A stretch of DNA of 64,000 nucleotides from Meiothermus sp. (GTDB lineage: Bacteria; Deinococcota; Deinococci; Deinococcales; Thermaceae): positions 372,001-436,000 of the forward strand of contig NZ_BPIJ01000001.1 of NCBI RefSeq assembly GCF_026004055.1, in the 5' to 3' direction. Shown piece after piece: positions 800 through 16,293 of the stretch (its first letter is position 1; each line of letters starts with the position of its first letter). The notes beneath the pieces are model-generated. The model was not told the origin of the DNA, did not search any database, and was given only the letters and a program-made list of their open reading frames with translations. A program made the position numbers and the translations under genes.

Positions 800-1798
800 T
801 TAGTGGGTCAGTACCTTTTGCACCGCCTCCAGCACCCGCCTGGCATCGGGGCGGTAGTAGTTTTCCACCGCGCTAAAAGGGGGATAAGGAGCATCCCAGC
901 CGGCCACCCGCACGATGGGGGCCTGTAGATAGTCCAGGGCCTCCTCGGCGATGCGGGCGGCCACCTCGGCCCCGAAGCCGCCGGTGCGCATGGCCTCGTA
1001 GACCACCACCGCGCGGCCAGTTTTCTGCACCGAGGCGAAGATGGTCTCGGTATCCAGGGGTACGAGGGTCTCGAGATCCACCACCTCCAGCTCCACCCCT
1101 TCCCGCGCGGCCACCTCGGCGGCCTTCTGGCAGACCTCCACCATGCCGCCGTAGCAGAAGAGGCTGGCCGCGTCCCCCTCCCGCACCACTCGAGCCCGGC
1201 CCAAAGGCAGGGTGTAATAGCCCTCGGGCACCTCGGCCTTTACCCCCCGGTAGAGCTTGATGGCCTCCAGGAAGAAGACCGGGTCGGGGTCTTCGATGGC
1301 CGCGAGCAATAGCCCCTTGGCCCGCTCGGGGGAGGAGGGAATCACCACCTTTACTCCCGGCACATGGGCCAGGATGGCCTCGGGGCTATCGGCGTGTTGC
1401 TCGGGGGTCTTGACCCCTCCGCCGTAGGGGGCCCGGATGACCATGGGGATGCTGAAGCGGCCCCGAGTGCGGTGGCGCATCCGGCCCAAGTGCGAGAGAA
1501 TCTGGTCGAGCGCGGGGTAGAGGAACCCCGCGAACTGAATCTCGGCCACCGGCCGCAGCCCGGCCATGGCCAGCCCAATCCCAAAGCCCACAATGCCCGA
1601 CTCGGCCAGGGGGGTGTCGAAAACCCTCTGCTCGCCGTATTTTTGCTGCAAGCCATCGGAGGCCCGGAAGACCCCGCCCATAACGCCCACATCCTCCCCG
1701 AAGAGCACCACCCTGGGGTCGCGCTCCAGGGCTAGGTCGAGGGCCTCATTGATGGCCTGTACATTGTTCAGAACCCGGGTCTGGCGTTCGGCGATCAT
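800..1798 (-). CDS. 2-oxoacid dehydrogenase E1 component, beta subunit
   Basis: This 332-residue protein is the beta subunit of a heterotetrameric thiamine-diphosphate E1 enzyme (pyruvate or branched-chain 2-oxoacid dehydrogenase). Family landmarks are FGEDVG near residue 30, [18 protein letters not shown], the QIQFAGF-like segment EIQFAGF, and IRAPYGGG with the following HADSPEA. The C-terminal transketolase-like domain follows. The ATG overlaps the TGA of the alpha subunit gene by four bases, so the two are translationally coupled. Several hundred in-frame bases upstream are open but belong to the alpha gene in another frame. The substrate cannot be decided from sequence by eye; no E2 or E3 gene is adjacent. 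Confidence 0.88.
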
Positions 1799-2829
1799 AC
1801 TTCCCCCCGCAAGTAGTTCCAGGCGGCTTTCTGGTCGGGCTGCATCTCGGCGTAGACCTGCTCCACAATCTCCCAGGGTTTGGGCTCTTGGGCTTGGTCG
1901 GCCTCTTCCACGGCGGCCAGGAACTCGCCCTCGAGGGCCTCGGTGAGCTCGGCTTCCTGCGCCTCGCTCCAAAGCCCTAGGTGCAGCAAGCAGTTTTTCA
2001 TGCGCATAATGGGGTCGCGCTGCTGCCAGCGAGCGGTTTCCTCTTCGGTGCGGTAGCGGCTGGGGTCGTCGGAGGAGGTGTGAGGGGCCACCCGGTAGGT
2101 GAGGGCTTCTATCAGGGTAGGCCCTTCGCCCCGGCGGGCCCGGGCCACCGCTTCCCGAGCCACGCTCCAGACCGCTACCAGGTCGTTGCCGTCCACCACC
2201 ACCCCCGGAATTCCGTAGCCCTGGGCCCGCTGGGCGATGCGCTTCACCTTCATCTGTTTGTGGGTGGGCACGCTGATAGCCCAGCCGTTGTTCTGCACCA
2301 CCACCAGCAGGGGGGCGCCAAACACCGAGGCAAAGTTCAACCCTTCGTGGAAGTCGCCCTCGGAAGTGCCCCCATCGCCGATGAAGACCGCCGCCACCGC
2401 GTCTTTACCCAAAAGCCGCTGGGCATGGGCCACACCCGCCGCCTGGGGAATCTGGGTGGCGATGGGAATGTAAAACTGCACCATGTTCACGTTGGGGGGG
2501 GCGCCCCAGCCCGCCGGGTCGGCCCGCCAGCTCAGGATGAGCCGACTGATGGGCATCCCAAAGGTGAGGGCTGCGGCGCTTTCGCGGTAGCTGGGCAGAA
2601 GCCAGTCGTGGTCGGCCTGTAGACAGAGGGCCACCCCCACCTGGGCGGCCTCCTGGCCCCGGAAAGGGGGATACACCCCCAGCCGTCCCTGCCGCTGCAA
2701 AACCAAAGCCCGTTCGTCGAAGTGCCGGGCCCGGCGCAGGGCGCGGTAGCCTAGGAGCAGTTCCTCCTGGCTAAGGGGCAGGTCTTGCAACGGTTTGCCC
2801 TGATCGTCGAGGTACTGAACTGTGTCCAC
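1795..2829 (-). CDS. 2-oxoacid dehydrogenase E1 component, alpha subunit
   Basis: A 344-residue E1 alpha subunit. It carries [10 protein letters not shown] near the N-terminus, the thiamine-diphosphate/Mg motif [18 protein letters not shown] (GDG through N of the GDGX-N signature), [14 protein letters not shown], and the phosphorylation-loop-like [17 protein letters not shown], which favours the branched-chain 2-oxoacid/pyruvate dehydrogenase family. I choose the GTG giving M-D-T-V-Q-Y-L because homology starts there; the frame stays open for about 67 codons upstream through apparently non-coding DNA, and ATG codons exist in that extension. No strong ribosome binding site precedes the GTG, so the start is provisional. 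Confidence 0.86.
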
Positions 2830-3169
2830 GTTGCACAGTTTAGCCCAACCTGGGTTAGCTGCATGGGTTCTAACAGGTAAAAGCAAATGGTCTGTGTAGC
2901 GAAGGGTAATACAGCCCCTGGCAAGGGATACGCTTGCTGCGACTGTTAGGGAGGGAACTTTGACGAATACCCGGCCCCACAAAACCTGCCGCATCGGGTA
3001 TTTGCGGGAATCATTCCGATATTCGTTCAAAAATATCTACATAATGCTGCTTCAACTGATAGTTTTTGCGTTATCCTCCGCGCCGTGAATAAACCGGAAA
3101 CGTGCTGGAGGCAGTTTGCTCGAAAACCATTGATCCCTAACCTGCCTCTTAGCGGTTGATGGTGTACTA
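2830..3169. other. Intergenic region upstream of E1 alpha
   Basis: About 340 bases between the E1 alpha start and repeat-element copy 1. I see no gene here. It should hold the promoter of the dehydrogenase operon, but no convincing -35/-10 pair stands out. One notable site is the odd palindrome GGAATCATTCC (3007-3017), whose complement recurs upstream of the iron-type binding protein gene. Confidence 0.5.
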
Positions 3170-3509
3170 GTGGTCTGGTGACTAAATTTCCGAAGTTATG
3201 TACCGCACCCCGAATACATCGTTGTAGAGATTCCATCCCACTTCGGCCCCCGAGATGGCCTAAAAACGCCCTCCCTACCGCGTAGGGAGGGTGGGGGAGG
3301 GTATCAGGCAAGGCCCCCAATCCGCTGGGTGAAGGGCCAGGTCAGCCACCCCACCTGGCCTCCCCTACGCAGTAGGGGAGGGAAGGGGCGAAGCGGGGTG
3401 GGGTGCTTTTTGCATGACCGTACAGGCAAGACACCGAAGGCCCAGGTTTACGAGACACGGCGCGTTCTGAAGGCTAAACCCCATGCTGCGTATTTTGTTA
3501 CCAGACCAC
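3170..3509. mobile_element. MITE-like element, copy 1 (340 bp)
   Basis: Non-coding element bounded by terminal inverted repeats: GTGGTCTGGTGAC on the left and GTTACCAGACCAC on the right. It is flanked by a TA on each side; removing one TA restores the target C-TA-G. The interior has two strong hairpins, CCCTCCCTAC-CGC-GTAGGGAGGG and TCCCCTAC-GCA-GTAGGGGA. Two further copies lie at 40161 and 49078. This copy is the most diverged, with about five extra bases in the second half. An open frame of about 51 codons is shared by all copies but has no recognisable product. The right end abuts the narK2 stop codon. Confidence 0.85.
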
Positions 3510-4852
3510 TAGCAAGGCTTTTCGGCATTTTTGCGGGCATAGAAGTACCAGTTGAGCCCAATGTTGAGGGCATAAAACACGGCTGCACCATAGAAGAATC
3601 CGGTAGCCGAGCCCGTGCTGGCAATCACCGCGCCAATCAGCGAGGAAAACACAAAGGGGCCATAGGCGGCGATGGCCGCTGTCCAGCCGATGACCCCGCC
3701 GGCCTTGCGCGGCTCGAAGATCATGGGCATTTGCTTGAAGGTACTGGCGTTGCCTATACCAGAGAACAGAAAGACCAGCAGCATGAAGAGCACAAACCAG
3801 GGAAACTGCTCGAGGGAGGTCGGTCGCAGGAAAAAGGTTACCCCAATGGCTGATAAGAGCAGCCCAATGCCACTCACCTGCGTCCAGATGGCCCCACCGT
3901 AGCGGTCGGTCAGGGGGCCCATCAGCACCCGGATCAAGGAGCCTACCAGTGGCCCCAGGAAGGCAAAGGCCAGGGGGTCGGGTGCCCCTTCAAACTTGCC
4001 GTACACGGTGCGGATCAAAAGCGGGAAGGTGGCAGAAAACCCGGAGAAGGAGCCGAAGGTCATGATGTAGAGGCTGGTCATGATCCAGGTATGCTTGTCG
4101 CCGAAGATATCGAATTGCTCACGGAAGTTGGCCCGCACCGGTACGCTTTTGAGCCAGACCCAGGCCAGCACTGCTCCCAGTAGCACCAGGGGCACGTAGA
4201 CCAGGGTGGCGTTTTGTAGCCAGATAGGCCGGCTAACCTCGCCTCGAGTGAAGGTCTGGGGGTCGCCCAACAGGGAGCCCAACAGGGCAAAGCCGATGAT
4301 CCAGGGGGTCACGAACTGCACCACCGAGACCCCAAAATTGCCCACCCCGGCCTGGATGCCCAGGGCGGTGCCTTGCAGCCTTTTAGGGAAGAAATAGCTG
4401 GTGCTGGGCATGAAGCCCGAAAAGTTACCCCCGCCAATGCCGGCCAGGAAGGCCAAAAGCATGAGGAGCCAGAAGGGGGTAGCGGTGTTTTGCACCGCCC
4501 AGGCCCAGCCGAGTAGGGGTACTAGCAGCAGCAAGGTTGAAAAGGTGACCAGGTGTCGCGTACCCAGCATGGGTGGCAAAAACGTCCAGATGATGCGCAG
4601 GGTGCCCCCGGCCAGGCCGGGCATGGCCGCGAGCCAGAAAAGCTGCGAGGTGCTGAGCTGAAAACCCACATTGGGTAGGCGTACAACCAGCGCACTCACC
4701 ACAAACCAGGTGATGAAGGCCAGGGTCAGGTTGAAGGTAGTGATCCAGAGGGTGCGCCAGGCTAAGGCCTTGCCCTGGGTTTCCCAAAACTGGGGATCTT
4801 CTGGCTCCCACCGGGCGAGCCAGGTTGAAGGAAAGGGTTTGGAAGGGTTCAT
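3509..4852 (-). CDS. narT: Nitrate/nitrite transporter NarK2 (NarT-like)
   Basis: A 447-residue, about 12-helix major facilitator protein of the nitrate/nitrite porter family. The first nitrate signature appears as AGIGGGNFSGFMPSTSYFFP followed by LGIQAGVGNFGVSVVQF; the second as SGIGNASTFKQMP. It is the last gene of the nar operon and its ATG overlaps the carbonic anhydrase stop (ATGA). In Thermus the operon likewise ends with two transporters, and the second is called NarT; function in nitrate import or nitrite export is inferred from that. The TAG stop lies exactly at the junction with repeat-element copy 1, so the insertion left the protein intact. Confidence 0.85.
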   Translation of the reverse strand: MNPSKPFPSTWLARWEPEDPQFWETQGKALAWRTLWITTFNLTLAFITWFVVSALVVRLPNVGFQLSTSQLFWLAAMPGLAGGTLRIIWTFLPPMLGTRHLVTFSTLLLLVPLLGWAWAVQNTATPFWLLMLLAFLAGIGGGNFSGFMPSTSYFFPKRLQGTALGIQAGVGNFGVSVVQFVTPWIIGFALLGSLLGDPQTFTRGEVSRPIWLQNATLVYVPLVLLGAVLAWVWLKSVPVRANFREQFDIFGDKHTWIMTSLYIMTFGSFSGFSATFPLLIRTVYGKFEGAPDPLAFAFLGPLVGSLIRVLMGPLTDRYGGAIWTQVSGIGLLLSAIGVTFFLRPTSLEQFPWFVLFMLLVFLFSGIGNASTFKQMPMIFEPRKAGGVIGWTAAIAAYGPFVFSSLIGAVIASTGSATGFFYGAAVFYALNIGLNWYFYARKNAEKPC

Positions 4853-5361
4853 AGACTCCTCTCGAGGCCCATAAGTCGGCTCGGGTATTCCGGTAAGGTT
4901 GTATCCAGGTGTTGCAAACGGTGGTCTTCCACGCGATATAAAAGGGGCACTACCGGTAACCCCAAGCGAACGCTTAGTTTGCGAGCCTGTCGCCGAGTAA
5001 AAAGCTCCACCTCGCCGATGGCCAGGGCGGCAATCTGGGCGCGGTAGTGCCGGATGTGTTCTTCATCGGTAGGGAGGTGGTTCAGCACGTAAGGGTCGGG
5101 GTACTGCATGGCGCAGTCGGTGTGCCCAATTAGGGCAATGGCCTGAATCCCCATGCGGGCCACCGAAAAGGCCAGATAGGGCTCCACCGGCTCGGGGTTG
5201 GCCCCACCGGTACGCAAGACAAAGGCGAAGTTCTCCGGCATCCGAAGGTGGATGCGAAAATCCATGCAGGTGACCACAGCCAGCTCGGGGTGGGAGAACG
5301 GAGGGAAGGAGAGGCCCTCGTTGTGGCTTCTTAGCAGGGTGTACACAGGTTCGGGCAGCAT
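4849..5361 (-). CDS. Small beta-class carbonic anhydrase
   Basis: A 170-residue soluble protein with all zinc and catalytic residues of beta-carbonic anhydrases: C32-x-D34-x-R36 in TCMDFRI, and H80-x2-C83 in GHTDCAM. It would interconvert CO2 and bicarbonate in the cytoplasm. It is shorter than the usual roughly 200 residues, resembling compact bacterial and archaeal forms. The frame stays open far upstream inside narK1; I start at the ATG eight bases after the narK1 stop, with GAGG a few bases before it. It overlaps narK2 by four bases, so it is a true operon member placed between two nitrate transporters, which is unexpected. Confidence 0.85.
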   Translation of the reverse strand: MLPEPVYTLLRSHNEGLSFPPFSHPELAVVTCMDFRIHLRMPENFAFVLRTGGANPEPVEPYLAFSVARMGIQAIALIGHTDCAMQYPDPYVLNHLPTDEEHIRHYRAQIAALAIGEVELFTRRQARKLSVRLGLPVVPLLYRVEDHRLQHLDTTLPEYPSRLMGLERSL

Positions 5362-5369
5362 GGAAAACC

Positions 5370-6702
<1,333 letters not shown>

Positions 6703-6716
<14 letters not shown>

Positions 6717-7479
6717 AGGATCCTCCTTTGTCTTGCAAGGCGGCCCGGGGTTTGGCTGAAGCGGGGGTTGGGTACGGTTGGGCGGCGGGTGAAACAGGCT
6801 GCAAACGGCGGTGTTTGCGCACCCAGATCACGATCTGCCAGGGCCGCCACAAATAGCCCAGCGGTACGGTGATGATGTGGATGAGCCGGGTGAAGGGAAA
6901 GACCGCCAGCAAGAGCCAGAAGTTGAAGACGTGAAGTTGAATCCAGAAGGGAAGGTCGGCGACCAGCTCGGGGCGAGGGCGCAGGGTGAAAATGGACCAG
7001 AGGTAGGGGGTGAAGACCGAGGGAAACCAGTACGAGCCGTAGCGGTACATTACGGCGGTAAGGATGCCGGTGAGGATCGAGACCAAGAGGAGCAGCAGCA
7101 CGATCACATCGGTGGGCCTGGTTACGGCCAGGATGCGCCGGTTGGAAAGGCGGCGATAGAGCAAAACCAAAAGCCCGCCCAGGGTCCAGAGGGCCAGGGC
7201 CAAGCCGGTGATCTCGAGCACAAAAAGCCGCATGGGCACCGCGTTCCAAAGCAAGAGCCCCTGGGGCAGGAGCAGTGCCAGCAAATGTCCCAGCAATATA
7301 ATCAGCACGCCCCAGTGGAAAGGCACCGAGCCAAAGTAGAGCAATTTGCGCTCCAGGAGCTGGCTGGACAGGCTCGAGACGCTAAAGGGCTTGCCCCGCA
7401 TCCGCTGGAAACTGACGACGACTAGAAGGGCCAGGGCCACGTAGGGAAACACCTGAAACAAGAGGATATTCCAGTTCAT
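6703..7479 (-). CDS. narI: Nitrate reductase gamma subunit (cytochrome b) NarI
   Basis: A 258-residue membrane protein with five hydrophobic helices that anchors the nitrate reductase and takes electrons from quinol. Candidate ligands for its two b hemes are H55 and H65 (FHWGVLIILLGH) and H183 and H201 (LHVFNFWLLLAVFPFTRLIH), with the 18-residue spacing typical of NarI. A roughly 35-residue polar tail follows the last helix, somewhat longer than in enterobacteria. Its ATG overlaps the narJ stop by four bases. Confidence 0.92.
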
Positions 7480-8066
7480 TCGTTACCTCCCTTCCAGAAC
7501 GGGAGATTGCGCATGAGTGAACCCATCACGATGGGAAGCTGAGAGGATTGCTCAGCTATCACAGCCTGCTTTGTATAGGGTTTGACCGCATCGAGCGTTG
7601 CTTCCAGAAGCAGCAGATACGGGTTCTTAGCTTCCAGGGTTTTGAGGGTGTGGAGGATCTGGTGGAGGGCCGGCCCCAGGAGTTGCAGAAGCTCGGGCAG
7701 CGGTTGCTCGGCCTCAGCCAGGTAGCGCAGCACCGGAATCAGGTGGTCGGGGATCTCACCTGCGGTGTCGATGCCCAGCCGCGAGTATTCCGCGTTGAGA
7801 TCGGCCATCAAACGCCCGCGCCGGTAGTCCTCGCCGTAGACCGCGTAGCCAATGTAGGGCGCGGTGAGCGGGGTGAGCTCGAGCGTGCGGGTATAAAGCT
7901 CCTCCCGCTCGGAGAGCTTGAGTTCGGAGATGGCCTGCAGGAAGCGCCCCAGCAGGTCTTTAGCCCTGGACGGGGGCAGGTTTTTTACCCGCTCCCATAA
8001 GGCTTTGGTAGAGCCCGGCTGGGGGTATTGGTAGGCCAGGGCTAGCGTTTCGAGAAGTGTAACCAT
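7476..8066 (-). CDS. narJ: Nitrate reductase assembly chaperone NarJ
   Basis: A 196-residue cytoplasmic helical protein of the TorD/NarJ family that would bind apo-NarG and guide molybdenum cofactor insertion and membrane attachment. The family stretch ELTPLTAPYIGYAVYGEDYRRG is visible in pieces near residues 65-85. I choose the ATG giving M-V-T-L-L-E-T-L, preceded by GAGGT; the frame is open 24 codons further, into the intercistronic hairpin. It is the only internal gene of the operon separated from its predecessor by a sizeable gap (74 bases, with a long hairpin), which may lower its dose relative to NarGH. Confidence 0.88.
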   Translation of the reverse strand: MVTLLETLALAYQYPQPGSTKALWERVKNLPPSRAKDLLGRFLQAISELKLSEREELYTRTLELTPLTAPYIGYAVYGEDYRRGRLMADLNAEYSRLGIDTAGEIPDHLIPVLRYLAEAEQPLPELLQLLGPALHQILHTLKTLEAKNPYLLLLEATLDAVKPYTKQAVIAEQSSQLPIVMGSLMRNLPFWKGGNE

Positions 8067-8090
8067 GTTTACCTCGTTTGTAAGATCGAA

Positions 8091-8140
8091 GGGTAAAAAG
8101 TGGGGTCTCGGTGCTTTTTGACCATTTCCACTTTTCACCC
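8091..8140 (-). promoter_or_regulatory. Intercistronic hairpin between narH and narJ
   Basis: The minus-strand transcript can fold GGGUGAAAAGUGG (8140-8128) against CCACUUUUUACCC (8103-8091): thirteen pairs with one G-U wobble and a 24-nucleotide loop. It starts next to the narH stop codon. No uridine run follows, so it is not a classical terminator; RNA processing, protection of the upstream message or partial attenuation are plausible. Confidence 0.55.
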
Positions 8141-9649
8141 CTAATCCCCCCTCACCGGCAACTCGATAAAGCCCACCCCGGTCTCGCCCTTGTGGGCCAG
8201 AGGGTCGTTCCAGACCTCTACGGCCTGTTCACGGTGGTAGGGCGGTACCACAAAGCGCTCCTGTAGGCTAGGTTTGGTGGTGAGCTGATAGATGGCCTCG
8301 ATTTCTTCGGGGCTGGTGTTGGCAGCCTCAACGAGTTTCAAAGTAGCCTCGTCAATCAAACCTTCCACGCTCTGACGACGCTTGTAGATGCGCACCGCCA
8401 GCAGCTTGCGGAGGATGGGTTTGATAACTTCCACATTGCCTGCGGCGAACAGGTTGGCCAGGTACTCCAGGGGTAGGCGGGATTTTTCCAGGTGATTGAA
8501 CAGTTCGAAGTCCACCTTTTCGGGCGGGAGCTCGAGCCGCACCAGCCCCTCCTCGAGGGTGCTCACGATGGGCGAGAGCGGGGGAATGTAGAAGAGCATG
8601 GCCATGGTGCGGTACTCCGGGTGCAGTGGCAGGGCCAGCTTCCAGACCTTGACGAACTTGTACACGGGCGATGCTTGAGCGGCCTTGATCCAGTCCTCGC
8701 CCAATCCACTTGCTTTGGCTTCGGCTATCACCTGGGGGTCGAAGGGGTCGAGGATGGCGTCGAGTTGGGCTTGCACTAGCTCTTGGGTCGCAGCGCTCGC
8801 TGCGGTGGCAATCCGGTCGGCGTCGTAGAGGATCACGCCCAGGTAGCGGATGCGCCCCACACAGGAATGGAAGCAGGCCGGGGCCTGGCCGGTCTCGAGG
8901 CGGGGGAAGCACAGGATGCACTTCTCGCTCTTGCCGGTAGCCCAGTTGTAGTAGACCTTCTTGTAGGGGCAGGCTGCCACGCACATGCGCCAGCCCTTGC
9001 ACTTGTTCTCGTTGACCAGCACCACCCCATCCTCGGCGCGTTTATAAATTGCGCCGCTGGGACAGGCCGCAACACAGGCCGGGTTCAGGCAGTGATTACA
9101 GATGCGCGGCAGGTAGTTGAAGGCCACCCGCTCGATCTCGGCCATCTGGGCCTGGATTTCGGGAGCCACCCCTTCCCAGTTGGGGTCGTTTTGGGCATAC
9201 AGGTTGGAGCCGCCCAGGTCGTCGTCCCAGTTGGGGCCGGCGGCGATGTGCATGGGTTCGCCGGTGATCATCGAGACCGGGCGGGCTACCGGCTGATCGT
9301 CACCCTCGGGGGCGTTGAAGAGGTGCTGGTAGTCGAAGGTGAAAGGCTCGTAGTAGTCATCCATCTCGGGGAGGGCCGGGTTGTAAAACAGGTTGGTCAG
9401 GCCCCGGGCGCGGGAGTGCAGCCGAAGCTCCAACTGGCCGTTTTTCTTTTCCCACCCCCCCTTGAACCGCTCCTGGTCTTCCCAGCCGGTGGGGTAGCCG
9501 GTGCCGGGCCGGGTCTCGACGTTGTTCCACCACATGTACTCGGTGCCCTTGCGGTCGGTCCAGAGGTTTTTGCAGGCCACCGAGCAGGTGTGGCACCCGA
9601 TGCACTTGTCGAGGTGGAAAGTCATGGAAACGTGTGCTCGTACATTCAT
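8141..9649 (-). CDS. narH: Nitrate reductase beta subunit (Fe-S) NarH
   Basis: A 502-residue iron-sulfur protein linking NarG to NarI. Four cysteine clusters are visible: CIGCHTCSVAC (residues 16-26), CNHCLNPACVAACPSGA, CKGWRMCVAACPYKK and CILCFPRLETGQAPACFHSC. The tryptophan in the third motif, where other clusters have cysteine, is the hallmark of the [3Fe-4S] centre of NarH. The frame is open upstream into narG, but the ATG giving M-N-V-R-A-H is preceded by GGAGGA and lies 16 bases after the narG stop. Length is normal for the family. Confidence 0.95.
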   Translation of the reverse strand: MNVRAHVSMTFHLDKCIGCHTCSVACKNLWTDRKGTEYMWWNNVETRPGTGYPTGWEDQERFKGGWEKKNGQLELRLHSRARGLTNLFYNPALPEMDDYYEPFTFDYQHLFNAPEGDDQPVARPVSMITGEPMHIAAGPNWDDDLGGSNLYAQNDPNWEGVAPEIQAQMAEIERVAFNYLPRICNHCLNPACVAACPSGAIYKRAEDGVVLVNENKCKGWRMCVAACPYKKVYYNWATGKSEKCILCFPRLETGQAPACFHSCVGRIRYLGVILYDADRIATAASAATQELVQAQLDAILDPFDPQVIAEAKASGLGEDWIKAAQASPVYKFVKVWKLALPLHPEYRTMAMLFYIPPLSPIVSTLEEGLVRLELPPEKVDFELFNHLEKSRLPLEYLANLFAAGNVEVIKPILRKLLAVRIYKRRQSVEGLIDEATLKLVEAANTSPEEIEAIYQLTTKPSLQERFVVPPYHREQAVEVWNDPLAHKGETGVGFIELPVRGD

Positions 9650-9665
9650 GGGTTCCTCCGTGGGC

Positions 9666-12600
9666 TCACCACTGCGGCGCCTCGATGCGCCGAACATAGA
9701 CGAAGGTGTCGCGGTTGACCCCCACCGGCCCCCAGTAGTTGAAGGCGTAGGTGAACTGGGCATAGCCCCCGCTCATCAGCACGGGCTTCAAGCGGGCGCG
9801 GGTAATGGAGTTGTTCATGCCGGCCCGTTTGCCCCGCAGGGGCGACTTGGGGACGCTCAGGGTGCGCTCGGTGGCGTGGTAGACAAAGACCGTGCCCCTG
9901 GGGATGCGGGCCGAAACAATGCAGCGCTGTACGAAAACCCCGTTATCGTTGAAGAGTTCCACCCAGTCGTTGTCCTGGATGCCCAGTTCGGCGGCGTCCT
10001 TGTCGTTGAGCCAGATGGGGTAGCCCCCACGGGAGAGGGTCATCATGCGGTGGTTGTCGGAGTAGGTGGAGTGGATGCTCCACTTGCCGTGGGGGGTGAT
10101 GTAGTTCAAGAGCTTGCCCTGGGCCTCGGCCTGAGTGATCTCGGTCTCTAAAAGCATCGAGTGGTCGGGGCGCGGCTTGTAGGTGGGCAGGTGCTCGCCC
10201 CAGGCCAGGTAGTTCGGGTGGTCGAGGTAGAAGTGTTGCCGCCCACTAAGGGTGCGCCAGGGGATGAGCCTTTCCACGTTCAGAGTGAAGGGGCTATAGG
10301 CCCGGCCCTGGTTGATGTTGGCGCTCCAGGTGGGCGTGGTGAGCTGGCGGCGTGGCTGGGCCACAATGTCGGAAAAGCTGATGCGGGTGTCGCGCACGGA
10401 TTCGGCCAGGTCGGTGAGCTTTACGCCGGTTTTCTTTTCCTCGTCTTTGAAAGCGCGGTAGGCCAGTTCGCCGTTGGAGACCGGATCGAGGTAAAGGATG
10501 GCCTCGGCCACTTGTTTGGCGTCCTCGAGGCTCGGATACACACTGCCATTCAGCTTGCGGCCCTGGCGGCGGCGCAGGTCATCGTAGAAGTCGGCTGCCG
10601 GAATGGTCAGGCCGTGCATCCCCACGCCATTCTTCTCGATGGCGTCGCCCAGGCTGACCATCTTCTCGTAGATCAGCGGGTACTGCCGCTCGACGATGCG
10701 GAACTTGGGCATGGTCTTGCCGGGGATGGGCTCGACCTGTCCTTTCTTCCAGTCGCGGTCGTCGGGCTGGGCCAGCTCGTCGGGGGTATCGTGCTGGAGT
10801 GGAATCATCACGATGTCCTTGACTGGCTGGGCCAGGTGAACCTTTGCCAGCTCGGAGAACTTCTGGGCGATGGCCTTGTAGATATCCCAGTCGCTCTTCG
10901 ACTCCCACAGTGGGGGGACAGCAGCTTGCATGGGGTTGATGTAGGTGTGTAGGTCGGTAGTGTTGAGGTCGGGCTTCTCGTACCAGGAGGCTGTAGGTAG
11001 CACGAGGTCGGAATAGAGCGCGCTGGTATCCATGCGGAAGTTCAAATCCACCACCAGATCCAGCTTGCCCTGGGGGGCTTCCTTGCGATACCGCACTTCC
11101 GAGACGTGCCCATTGGCTTGTTCCTGGGCCACCGCGCCCGTGTGCGTACCCAGATAGTGCTTGAGGAAGAACTCATGGCCTTTGGCCGAAGTCCCGATGG
11201 CGTTGCCCCGCCAGATAAACCACACCCTGGGCCAGTTGGCGGGGGCGTCGGGGTCGTCTATGGCGAACTCGAGCCTCCCCTCCTTGAGCTGCTTGACTAC
11301 ATAAGCAATGATTTCCGCGTCGGTCTGGGCTCCGGCTTTCTGGGCTTCCTCGACTACCTCGAGGCTCGACTTGTTGAACTGCGGGAAGAAGGGTAGCCAG
11401 CCCTTGCGCACAGCGCGGGCCTGGTGGTCTATGGTGTGATCGGTCTTGGGGCCTACGGTCTTGTCGTAGTCCTTGTAGCCCCGCTCATAGCGCCACTGGT
11501 CGGAGTGCACGTAGTGGAAGCTGGGGGTGTTCTGCTGGCGGGATGGGTAGCCCCAGTCGCCCGCAAAGGCAATGGGCCCCCAACTGGCCTGGTTGGCGAG
11601 CTTCTCCTGCCCCACATAGTGGGCCAGCCCGCCGCCGTTGACCCCCACCGCGCCGGTGAGCATCAGCGCCACAATGCCCGCACGGTACAGCAGGTTGTTG
11701 TGGTACCAGTGGTTGGCCCCCGCGCCGATGATGATCAGGTTCTTGCCGCCCGTCTTTTCGCCGTTCTCGGCCCACTCGCGGGCGTAGCGGATCAGGGTGT
11801 CGCGGTGGATGCCGGTGTATTGCTCCTGCCAGGCCGGGGTATAGGGGCCTACCTCGTCATAGGTCTGGGGGTAGTCGCCCCCCAGGCCCCGATCCACGCC
11901 AAACTGGGCCATCAGCAGGTCGAAGACGGTGGTAACGGTGACGGATTCGCCGGTTTTGCTGGTAAGCTTTTTGACCGGAACGCCGCGCCGGGTCTTCCTG
12001 TCCGCGCCGAAGTCGTCAAACTCCAACTGGAGTACTTCATCCGGGTTGTCGCGGAAGCTTAGGAGCGGGTCGATCTTCTCGCCGGTCTGGGCGTCCTCGA
12101 GCTCTAAGTTCCACTTGCCCTTCTCGGTTTGCCAGCGGAAGCCTATCGTCCCACCGGGCATCCGGGGAGCACCACTCAGTGCGTCCCAGACCAGGAGTTT
12201 CCAGTCGCCGTTTTCCTGGTCGGCGTAATCGGCGAGCTGGTTTGCCCGCAGGTAACGCCCCGGGCGGCCCTCCTTCACCTCGACCAGCATGGGGCTGTCG
12301 GTGTAGCGCTTCAAATAGTCCACGAAGTACGGAACCTGCTTCAGTACGTAAAACTCCTTCAAGATGACGTGGTTTACCGCCATCCAGAAGGCCCCGTCCT
12401 GGCCTGGATTAATCGGTAGCCACCAGTCGGCGTACTTGGCCACCTGGTTGAAGTCCGGAGCAAAGACCGTGAACTTGGCCCCGGCATAGCGCCCCTCGGC
12501 GATGTAGTGGGTGTCGGGGGTGCGGGTCATGTTCAGGTTGGAGCCCACCACCGCAATAAAGCGGGCATTGTACCAGTCGGCGGCCTCGTGCACGTCGGTT

Positions 12601-13256
12601 TGCTCGCCCCAGATTTCGGGAGAAGCGTTGGGCAGGTCGCAGTACCAGTCGTAAAAGCTCATCGGCACCCCGCCCAACAGGCTCAGAAAGCGCGAACCCG
12701 CGGCATAACTGATCTGCGACATGGCCGGAATGGGGCTAAAGCCGATGATACGGTCGGGGCCGTGCTGCTTGATGGTGTGCACCAGCGAGGCCGCAATGAT
12801 TTCCAACGCTTCGTCCCAGCTAAAGCGCCTAAAGCCGCCCTTGCCCCGCGCCCGCTGCCAGCGCCTGCGCTTTTCGGGGTCATTTACCAGGCTTTTCCAG
12901 GCCTCTACCGGGTCGGGGTGCTGCTCCCGGGCTTCACGCCACAGGTCGAGCAGGGCCCCCCGCACGTAGGGGTACTTGACCCGGATGGGGCTGTACAGAT
13001 ACCACGAGTAGCTCACCCCGCGCTGGCAACCCCGGGGGGTGATGTCGGGCAGGTTGGGGTCAATGGCGGGATAGTCGGTGGCCTGGAGCTCCCAGGTCAC
13101 AATGCCGTCCTTGACAAAGACCTCCCAGCTACAACTGCCGGTGCAGTTGACCCCGTGGGTGGTGCGCACCCGCTTGTCGTGGGCGAAGCGGTTTCGATAA
13201 AACTCCTCCCACTTGCGTTCGGTGGGGGCTTCCAGTTCCTTGATCCAATCGCTCAT
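9666..13256 (-). CDS. narG: Respiratory nitrate reductase alpha subunit NarG
   Basis: A 1196-residue molybdenum bis-MGD catalytic subunit reducing nitrate to nitrite at the cytoplasmic face of the membrane. The N-terminal [4Fe-4S] site has H34, C38, C42 (HGVNCTGSC) and C77 (PRGCQRG), the His/Cys3 set of NarG. The molybdenum aspartate is in [19 protein letters not shown] (D207). There is no twin-arginine signal in the first residues, so it is not the periplasmic NapA type. The ATG overlaps the narC stop by four bases. The length is close to E. coli NarG. Confidence 0.96.
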
Positions 13257-14050
13257 GCGCTCCTCCTGCTGCGTATCCGTTCGGCCAGGCCCACCCGCCG
13301 GTTGCTCCAGAACAAGTACATGACGCCGAACAGCCCCCCAAAGCCGATGAACCCGGCGAAGAGCATCCGGGCCATGTCCATTTGGTGGGTGTTGGCGGGC
13401 TGGCCTGCGGTCTGGGCAAAGAAAGCGGTGAGGGCCGAAATTTCTTCGGGGGTGAGGGGTTTGCCCTTATAGCTTTCGCGCATCACCGGGAAGGCGATGT
13501 TGGCGAGTACACCCTGAATGCCTGCCGCCCCCAGGCGGGTGTGCAGGTCGGTGAGATCGCGCCCCAGGCTGCCCCCGCCCATGGGGCCGAAGTTGCCTGC
13601 CGTGTGGCAGGCCATGCAGGGCGCGCCGCCGTTTTGGAAGCGGCTCTGGCCCAAAAAGAGCGCCTTGCCTTTGGCTGCGAGGGCGGGGTCGGTGGCAGGC
13701 TCTGGGGTGGCGGTGGGTTGTGGGGGAGTGGTTGTGGTGGCCCCTAGTCCCTTGATGTACGCGGCAATTGCCCGGGCGTCGGCTTCGGAAATTTGGGACA
13801 TGGCGGGCATTACCCCGTTGTAGGTCTGGCCGCCCACTTCCAGCGGGCCGCTGACGCCTTGGCGAATCGCCTTGACCACGTAGGCCTCGTCCTGTATTCG
13901 GGGGTTTCCTGCCAGGGGTGGGAAGACCCCTGGGATACCCTGTCCGTTTACACCGTGGCAACCTGCGCAGTTTTGGCTGTAGAGCTGCCCTCCATCGGCA
14001 GCCATTGCCAGACCGAGCCAAGCGGCCACGAGTACCAGTAGTTGCTTCAT
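13253..14050 (-). CDS. narC: Diheme cytochrome c NarC of the nitrate reductase operon
   Basis: A 265-residue exported cytochrome. Residues 1-18 form a signal peptide ([18 protein letters not shown]). Two c-type heme sites follow, CAGCH (28-32) and CMACH (145-149), separated by a linker rich in Pro and Thr (residues 105-122). A C-terminal helix (about 227-248) with a basic tail anchors it so that the heme domains face the periplasm. In Thermus the equivalent gene opens the nar operon and its product is needed for electron transfer and assembly of the reductase. It is coupled on both sides by ATGA overlaps. Confidence 0.9.
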
Positions 14051-14241
14051 ACCAGCCTCCTTTGTTTGTGGTTTTCCAGCCAGGCCAGGAGTTCCTCGAG
14101 CTCGAAGAAGGGATGCTCGAGTCCCGTCCGGGCATCCTTGATGCGACCTTCCCAACGGCCGGTTTCATCCGGCCACAACAGCACCAGATACACCGGCGAC
14201 TTGGGCGGGGGTAGGTTGCGGGGGGTGGGCTCCTGGGCCAT
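14047..14241 (-). CDS. Small conserved-looking protein opening the nar operon
   Basis: A 64-residue soluble protein with a Pro-rich start, then V-Y-L-V-L-L-W-P-D-E and F-F-E-L-E-E-L-L-A-W-L-E. I do not recognise a named family, though short proteins with this pattern of an LW-containing strand and an F-x-S/E-LEEL helix are common near respiratory or regulatory genes. Translation is supported by AGGGG six bases before the ATG and by the four-base overlap with narC. It is therefore the first gene of the nitrate reductase operon. Function unknown; a role in enzyme maturation or regulation would be a guess. Confidence 0.65.
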   Translation of the reverse strand: MAQEPTPRNLPPPKSPVYLVLLWPDETGRWEGRIKDARTGLEHPFFELEELLAWLENHKQRRLV

Positions 14242-14334: not shown

Positions 14335-16293
14335 ATGAACCCGGTGCGCTGGCAGCTTGATGCGAACGGGCGGGTGACCGCCTGGAGTGCCGAGGCGGCT
14401 TCGTTTTTCCACCTGCCAGCTTCCGAGGTGTTGGGCAAGCCTTGTGCGTTGGTGGTACAGGGCACCGATCCTTTTGGCCGTCCCCTGTGCGTGCGCTGCC
14501 CGGTTCAGCGGGAGCTACGCTATGGGGCCTACCAGGCCAGCACGCCCCTCCACTGGCATGGCCGGCGGATGCTCTGCCAGGGCTACGCCCATGAGGGTTT
14601 CCAGATCGAACTCAAATCCGCTCGAGGCTTCCAGACAGGCGATCTACTCACCTCGCTGGCCTGGGCTACCCGCAAGCTCCATGCGGAGCCGGGTCGCTTT
14701 TTTCAGACTTTGCAGGTATTTTTGGCGGGCCTGCGCAAAAGCCTGGGCATGGAAGCTGCCGAACTTTTCCTGGCCGACCCGCAGCAGCGCTATCTGGTGC
14801 TTACCGCCTACGACGGCCTTCACCGCGAGGCTTTTATGGAGAAGCCCTGGTTTGCTTGGGGCGAGGGTTACCCGGGGCTGGTTGCCCTGGAGCATCAGGC
14901 CCTGGTTACCCACGACCTGGCTTCGGACGCCCGTTATTTGCGACAGAAGGTCAAGAAGCTGGGCTACAAGACCTACCTTTGCTATCCGCTGGAACTGCCC
15001 CAAGGGCTTATCGGCGTGCTGAACCTGGCCAGCCGCGACCCCAACGTAGAGGACGAGACCTTGCTTGAGCAAGTTACCCTAATGGGCCCCGTGCTAGCAG
15101 CTTCGCTGTATACCGTACTGACCCGATTGGGCGAGAAGGGCCTGCTCTCAATCGTTTCTGCACTTCGACGGGGCTCTGAATCGGAGGGCCTCGAGACTTT
15201 CTTGGCTCAGGCCGCGGCCATTAGCGGAGCCTCATGTGTGCGGCTGGTGCTTCAGGATGGTCGCAGTCTGGTTCAGGGCCGTTGCGAGGCGCCGGCATGC
15301 CCGCATGTGCAGGGGTGTGGCGTTTGGCAAGGCAAGATACAGGGGGTCAAGGTGGGGCTGGAACCCTGTCCCCATATCGAGACCGGGCGGCCCCGTTACT
15401 GCTTGCCCCTATGGTCGGGAGGGCGTGTGGTGGGGGTGCAGCAGTTTCACTTTGCCCGCATACCCCAGCCGCCTAGCCAGGCCGTCGCGCCCGTTTTGTG
15501 GCTCGAGCGACTTGGTGCCGAGGCCCTATGGCCGTACTCAGAACGGGCGGGAGAAAGTCCTGAGCTAGAGATCTACACCCTAGGAGGCCTACAGCTACGC
15601 CGTAGGGGAGAGCTGCTACCGGCCAGGGCCTTTGGGCGCCGCCAAGCCCTCACCCTCCTGAAGTTGCTCCTGTCCCATCGCGGCCAAACCCTTTGTTGCG
15701 AGGAAATTTGCGGATGTCTTTGGCCAGAACAAGAGAGCTGCGAAACCCAAAGCCGCCTCCATGTCTTAATACATGATTTGCGGCAGGCCATCGAGCCCGA
15801 CCCCACTCAGCCCCGGCTCATCCTGCGCGAGGGCGAGGGTTACCGCTTCGCCCCGCAAATCCCCTACTTTCTCGACGTCGAGCGCTTCGAGCAGCTCATC
15901 CACCGGGGCGACGGCCTAGAGGGCACGGCGGCCATGGAGGCCTACCGCCAGGCCTTGGCCCTGTACAAAGGCGACTTTCTGGCCGATGAGCCCTACGCCG
16001 ACTGGGCCGAACTCGAGCGCGCCTACCTGCGCGAGCGGGCGGTGGGCGCCCTGCTGCGCAGCGCCGAGATCGCCCGCTCGCTGGGCCAGCCCCGCGAAGC
16101 CCTGGAAGCCTATCGCCGCATTCTCAAGCTTGACCCCTGGCGCGAGGAGGCCTACCGCGCCCTGATGCAGCAGCTTGTGGAGCTGGGGCAAAAGCTCGAG
16201 GCCAAGAGCCTCTTCAGTCAGTACCAGACCCGCATGGAACGCGAGGGCTTGCCCATCGACCCCGACCTTGCCAGGCTGGTGCAACCGGCATGA
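14335..16293 (+). CDS. dnrS: Sensor-regulator DnrS (PAS-GAF-wHTH-BTAD)
   Basis: A 652-residue cytoplasmic regulator divergent from the nar operon. Residues 1-90 look like a PAS domain with cysteines 37, 52 and 55 (LCVRC). A GAF domain spans about 105-265. A second sensor segment (285-375) holds cysteines 301, 317, 322, 328, 345 and 356. Residues 410-510 form an OmpR/SARP-type winged helix, followed by a tetratricopeptide-like BTAD domain to the end. In Thermus, DnrS and DnrT are required to express the nitrate respiration genes in anoxia; identity here rests on position, architecture and partner gene. The stop overlaps the dnrT start (ATGA). The cysteine sets may bind a metal or Fe-S centre, which is inference. 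Confidence 0.82.
   Translation: MNPVRWQLDANGRVTAWSAEAASFFHLPASEVLGKPCALVVQGTDPFGRPLCVRCPVQRELRYGAYQASTPLHWHGRRMLCQGYAHEGFQIELKSARGFQTGDLLTSLAWATRKLHAEPGRFFQTLQVFLAGLRKSLGMEAAELFLADPQQRYLVLTAYDGLHREAFMEKPWFAWGEGYPGLVALEHQALVTHDLASDARYLRQKVKKLGYKTYLCYPLELPQGLIGVLNLASRDPNVEDETLLEQVTLMGPVLAASLYTVLTRLGEKGLLSIVSALRRGSESEGLETFLAQAAAISGASCVRLVLQDGRSLVQGRCEAPACPHVQGCGVWQGKIQGVKVGLEPCPHIETGRPRYCLPLWSGGRVVGVQQFHFARIPQPPSQAVAPVLWLERLGAEALWPYSERAGESPELEIYTLGGLQLRRRGELLPARAFGRRQALTLLKLLLSHRGQTLCCEEICGCLWPEQESCETQSRLHVLIHDLRQAIEPDPTQPRLILREGEGYRFAPQIPYFLDVERFEQLIHRGDGLEGTAAMEAYRQALALYKGDFLADEPYADWAELERAYLRERAVGALLRSAEIARSLGQPREALEAYRRILKLDPWREEAYRALMQQLVELGQKLEAKSLFSQYQTRMEREGLPIDPDLARLVQPA

Follow-up and report, generated by a model that had tools for sequence, protein, structure and literature searches.

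Why should a gene resembling a carbonic anhydrase (CA) lie between two nitrate transporter genes of a respiratory nar operon, and what might its product do there? The question arises from a window, that is, a stretch of DNA of 64,000 nucleotides, in the 3.18-Mb genome of a hot-spring bacterium of the Meiothermus group, in which this gene, here called nar-CA, is part of the nar locus. The Thermus nar papers that we consulted (including PMC7694296 and PMC6394727) make no mention of a CA in the nar operon, and our search of a limited collection of literature revealed no CA described in any nar operon. A CA that is conserved, translationally coupled and inherited with a nitrite/nitrate carrier would link nitrate respiration to CO2/bicarbonate chemistry, and nar-CA lends itself to simple tests in a group amenable to genetics; for example, a nar operon can be transferred into T. 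thermophilus HB27 (PMC6394727).

The nar operon and its carbonic-anhydrase-like gene

The features of the locus, in window coordinates and with the evidence on which each was assigned, are the following.

3269..3291, minus strand: terminator-like hairpin downstream of narT, 10-bp stem and T tail
3509..4852, minus strand: narT (= narK2), NarK2-type nitrate/nitrite transporter (open reading frame, family match, alignment)
4849..5361, minus strand: nar-CA, divergent beta-CA-like protein of 170 aa; predicted zinc ligands C32, H80 and C83, D34-R36 dyad
5362..5376, minus strand: narK stop codon, GAGG ribosome-binding site and 8-nt spacer ahead of the nar-CA ATG
5370..6716, minus strand: narK, NarK1-type nitrate/nitrite transporter (open reading frame, family match, alignment)
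6703..7479, minus strand: narI, nitrate reductase gamma subunit (family match)
7476..8138, minus strand: narJ, nitrate reductase chaperone (weak NCBIfam match and position)
8141..9763 (bounds of the open reading frame), minus strand: narH, nitrate reductase beta subunit (sequence, position, homologous reading frames in the nar loci of relatives)
9666..13256, minus strand: narG, nitrate reductase alpha subunit (sequence and nar loci of relatives)
13253..14155, minus strand: narC, c-type cytochrome, first gene of the operon (family match)
14335..16293, plus strand: dnrS-like regulator (PAS/GAF/BTAD), divergent from the nar operon (family match; role in Thermus, PMC7694296)
16290..16970, plus strand: dnrT-like regulator of the CRP family (sequence, position; role in Thermus, PMC7694296)

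The minus-strand genes run from 14155 to 3509 in the order narC-narG-narH-narJ-narI-narK-CA-narT, and with narCGHJI, narK, narT and divergent dnrST the locus has the composition of a Thermus-type nar operon. Gene order and regulators resemble those of the Thermus narCGHJIKT operon with dnrST (PMC7694296, PMC6394727), in which, however, narK and narT follow each other without an intervening gene. The nar-CA reading frame starts with ATG and is free of internal stops over its 170 codons. Its ATG lies 8 nt behind the end of narK, with the GAGG ribosome-binding site overlapping the narK stop codon, and its own stop codon overlaps the narT ATG by 4 nt (4849-4852), in agreement with the original prediction, which had placed the gene between the two transporter genes with a four-base overlap of narT. 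We found that the hairpin at 3269..3291 was the strongest terminator-like one in the region 2950-7500, and that the stretch from narI to narT held nothing comparable. Because the spacing is tight or overlapping and such a hairpin stands only behind narT, there is good reason to infer that nar-CA is co-transcribed with the nar operon. In Thermus, anoxia together with nitrate induces dnrST and the nar genes (PMC7694296); as part of the presumed nar transcript, nar-CA would thus be made mainly when DnrS and DnrT turn on nitrate respiration. Past the hairpin, on the same strand (window 800-3030), are genes whose sequences read as those of a two-subunit 2-oxo acid dehydrogenase E1.

A divergent subfamily of the beta-CA fold

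The original prediction regarded the product as a beta-CA with a complete active-site set. All five residues are present at the predicted numbers, in C32-x-D34-x-R36 and H80-x-x-C83, and were invariant in an alignment of 12 subfamily members, so that the sequence contains both the Cys-His-Cys zinc ligands (CxDxR ... HxxC) and the Asp-Arg dyad (D34, R36) of beta-CAs. The identification thus stood for the residues and, as described below, for the modelled fold, but the protein belongs to a subfamily too divergent for any Pfam or NCBIfam model to reach its cut-off. Specifically, Pro_CA (PF00484) scored 16.2 bits against a gathering threshold of 25.7 (best member, E 1e-4) and Pro_CA_2 (PF20393) scored 18.8 bits against 30 (best member, E 4e-6). 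A profile of the subfamily matched 6jqd best in the PDB (3e-11), and also 1g5c (1e-7) and CS2 hydrolase (7e-7). The AlphaFold monomer model (pLDDT 83.6, pTM 0.78) has the predicted alpha/beta fold of a beta-CA, with a Foldseek E of 4e-8 against the PDB and a VIA Z of 15.5 to 1g5c (Cab). Among the matches listed for the model there were beta-CA-type folds only, the best being Cab and CafC, with Cab first by Z; COS hydrolase and CS2 hydrolase were also among the structure and profile matches.

In a tree of the nar-CA subfamily together with canonical beta-CAs from the same order, Cab and CafC, the nar proteins fell with relatives from two further families into one separate clade (support 0.998), nearest to Cab/CafC (support 0.952). 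In the corresponding alignment, every member of this clade has a loop behind CxDxR that is shorter by 4-6 residues, and RT(G/S/T)GAN instead of the RN-type motif; HTDCAM substitutes for HTDCG in the Thermaceae/f2 branch. Cab of Methanobacterium thermoautotrophicum is similar to nar-CA in fold (142 residues aligned), in length (about 170 aa) and in the motifs CMDxR and HTDC, but the two share 25% identity, nar-CA is 6 residues shorter behind CxDxR, and RTxGAN and HTDCAM stand where Cab has KNAGN and HTDCGM. The fungal beta-CA CafC (PDB 6jqc/6jqd) is the best profile match and has the same fold, whereas its identity is 28% and nar-CA differs from it by a 4-residue loop deletion and by the bacterial nar operon context. 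Canonical PF00484 beta-CAs (e.g. those of genomes G023, G025, G028 and G034) belong to the same superfamily and likewise occur only in nar-positive genomes of our non-Thermus Thermaceae sample, but they form a separate clade with CSDSR and GHYGCGG motifs of their own, are about 215 aa long and lie outside the nar operon.

Taken together, the fold match, the family scores below threshold and the separate clade indicate, at the level of sequence and predicted structure, that nar-CA belongs to a new, divergent subfamily missed by the Pfam and NCBIfam models; the novelty lies in the subfamily and its operon context, the fold itself being known. The loop deletion and RTxGAN may alter substrate or rate, and the CO2-hydrating activity of this subfamily should not be taken for granted. 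Within Meiothermus, the dN/dS of nar-CA is 0.12-0.16, about three times the 0.04-0.05 of narK/narT; the gene is under purifying selection, with weaker constraint than on its neighbours. This ratio, the same position in six species and the match to beta-CA structures argue against a chance reading frame.

Distribution and linkage to narT

Members of the subfamily were found in 12 of 111 genomes of the order. The insertion is not unique to one strain; such uniqueness is what the original prediction had named as speaking against it. The gene occupies the same position in six Meiothermus species and is also present in one Thermus. Specifically, half of the 18 Meiothermus genomes (genus g1) are nar-positive, and six of these nine carry nar-CA, always exactly between narK and narT and, in all six species, with overlaps or short spacers; the nine nar-negative genomes contain none. 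Among 18 nar-positive Thermus, the gene is present in one (G059), directly behind narT in the order narK-narT-CA; same-strand reading frames past this CA (L053:10469-14416) resemble ferredoxin, membrane proteins and others. The survey of the two genera that had been proposed revealed a recurrent gene order in Meiothermus, whereas the gene is rare in Thermus and missing from three nar-positive Meiothermus. Its absence from 17 of 18 nar-positive Thermus and from these three Meiothermus indicates that nitrate respiration does not need nar-CA.

In the stretches read, the more distant relatives (genomes G003 and G005-G008; families f2 and f3) are not beside nar genes, the f2 relative being 0.5 kb from a contig end. 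The f3 relatives at L057:9824-10354 and L058:2719-3261 overlap, by at most 4 nt, the end of an upstream same-strand reading frame with a signal-peptide-like start. Relatives were not found in plasmids and viral contigs, and a scan of genome contigs gave matches from Meiothermus only.

In a tree of the rpsB region, nar-positive Meiothermus were scattered among nar-negative sisters (G029/G040, G039/G031+G043 and G042+G035/G036), and in each of these cases nar-CA and nar were present or absent together. The operon of G028 separates the transporter end from the reductase. Its NarG and NarI group within those of the CA-bearing operons (96% to G035). DNA identity, in contrast, drops from roughly 90% to roughly 75% at the equivalent of window positions 5800-5900, a point within narK, and does not recover through narT; the CA is absent. 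This mosaic (L061, about 11,400-13,419, against window 5900-3509) joins a segment from narJ to the 5' part of narK that is close to CA-bearing Meiothermus with a narK 3' part and a narT of another lineage, and from these sequences we conclude that the transporter end (narK-3'/CA/narT) was exchanged as a block. Since the breakpoint is in narK and the CA is missing where the narT end is of another lineage, nar-CA travels with narT, not with the reductase. Compared with the NarT of the window, those of CA-bearing Meiothermus are 94-97% identical and those of CA-less relatives outside Thermus 73-77%; the NarT group of CA-bearing Meiothermus is nearer to Thermus NarT.

Possible roles in nitrate respiration

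The narK-CA-narT arrangement looks like a real, undescribed accessory part of nitrate respiration, and we see about an even chance that nar-CA serves there as an accessory CO2/HCO3- enzyme, located in the cytoplasm and belonging to the nitrate-respiration regulon. Such a protein would be a cytoplasmic zinc enzyme with the beta-CA fold, translated from the nar transcript in coupling with narK upstream and narT downstream; it would bind zinc via C32, H80 and C83 and accelerate CO2 + H2O <-> HCO3- + H+. Nitrate reduction by NarG takes place in the cytoplasm and uses up two protons. As NarG consumes these cytoplasmic protons with each nitrate, NarK1-type carriers would bring in nitrate together with protons and respiratory CO2 would build up, a setting in which nar-CA would speed proton supply or buffering and the handling of respiratory CO2. 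The likely benefit would be a faster exchange of CO2, bicarbonate and protons on the cytoplasmic side of the membrane when cells grow anaerobically. The enzyme would supplement the gamma-CA-like protein of Meiothermus, and would be dispensable, since several nar-positive relatives lack it. A comparable case is CynT, the beta-CA of the E. coli cyn operon, which serves a bicarbonate-dependent cyanase; it too is a beta-CA assigned to an operon for inorganic nitrogen, but no bicarbonate-dependent enzyme such as cyanase was seen at nar-CA.

Co-occurrence bears on the value of such an enzyme. Among 22 non-Thermus Thermaceae (genera g1-g3), and with shared ancestry ignored, a beta-CA of either kind is present in 11 of 12 nar-positive against 0 of 10 nar-negative genomes (Fisher p 3e-5), and a canonical beta-CA alone in 7/12 against 0/10 (p 0.005), which suggests, rather than proves, that nitrate respirers in these genera profit from a beta-CA; Thermus does not fit the rule. 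Two genomes, G028 and G034, have a canonical beta-CA elsewhere and lack nar-CA. That of G034 (L062:18509-19165) follows a nar operon without nar-CA at a distance of 5.5 kb, and was not counted as an operon member because unrelated metabolic genes lie in between.

It is possible, though doubtful, that nar-CA is instead a beta-CA-fold hydrolase or hydratase for a different small substrate (COS or CS2, an anion of the cyanate or thiocyanate type, or nitrite/N2O3 chemistry); this would account for its site with nitrogen-oxide transporters. The short CxDxR loop and the replaced RN motif, found in every member, may leave room for another small substrate, the fold includes the COS and CS2 hydrolases seen among the matches, and mammalian alpha-CA reportedly acts as a nitrous anhydrase (PMC7875556), a precedent still under discussion (PMC7924222). 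However, all beta-CA catalytic residues including the Asp-Arg dyad are retained, the closest structures are beta-CAs, and no sulfur, cyanate or nitrite enzyme adjoins the gene. We consider it rather unlikely that this unrecognised subfamily (short loop, RTxGAN, HTDCAM) would act as a dedicated NarT partner, providing protons or bicarbonate, or handling a nitrogen-oxide substrate, at the carrier in anaerobic respiration.

A supply of bicarbonate for carboxylation (RuBisCO or anaplerosis), with the nar location incidental, is an unlikely role. The window genome does contain a RuBisCO large-subunit gene (G000:C1:1692097-1693020), patchy across the genus, but beta-CA tracks nar and shows no association with RuBisCO (5/10 genomes with it against 6/12 without it, p 1.0, in the same 22 genomes), no beta-CA of any kind occurs in five nar-negative Meiothermus that have RuBisCO, and a gamma-CA-like gene already exists in every genome of Thermaceae, with a single fragmentary draft as the exception. 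In the window genome this gene, with strong gamma-CA matches, lies about 45 kb before the window start (G000:C1:327211-327909; L093:1465-2166), and the idea that nar-CA is the only CA of the genome was rejected on this account; nor, given its near-universal presence in Thermaceae, is nar-CA the sole CA candidate. Searches of the window genome for a PF00484 match, an alpha-CA and DabA found none, and the DabA bicarbonate transporter and alpha-CA were not found in Thermaceae.

Still less probable is a physical partnership with NarT/NarK in transport, such as nitrite/bicarbonate exchange by NarT or direct proton delivery, despite the facts that nar-CA always adjoins narT, in the six Meiothermus by a 4-nt overlap or by abutting its start, and that G028, with a narT end of another lineage, has no CA there. 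Arginines R86/R308 of NarT and R70/R279 of NarK are invariant and correspond, in the alignments, to the pair of substrate arginines R89/R305 in E. coli NarK. No transporter residue distinguishes CA-bearing from CA-less operons across both genera, the Thermus case included; nothing here points to an altered anion specificity, and the modified anion exchange by NarK2 that had been proposed was not borne out. Carriers of the NarK1 type are regarded as symporters of nitrate and H+, those of the NarK2 type as antiporters of nitrate and nitrite (PMC3764938, PMC6394727). In T. thermophilus, nitrate respiration is supported by CA-less NarK/NarT pairs (PMC6394727).

Finally, a passenger without function in nitrate respiration, as the patchy distribution and an evolution faster than that of the neighbours might suggest, is very improbable in view of the purifying selection, the conserved catalytic residues and the tight coupling kept in six species and a second genus.
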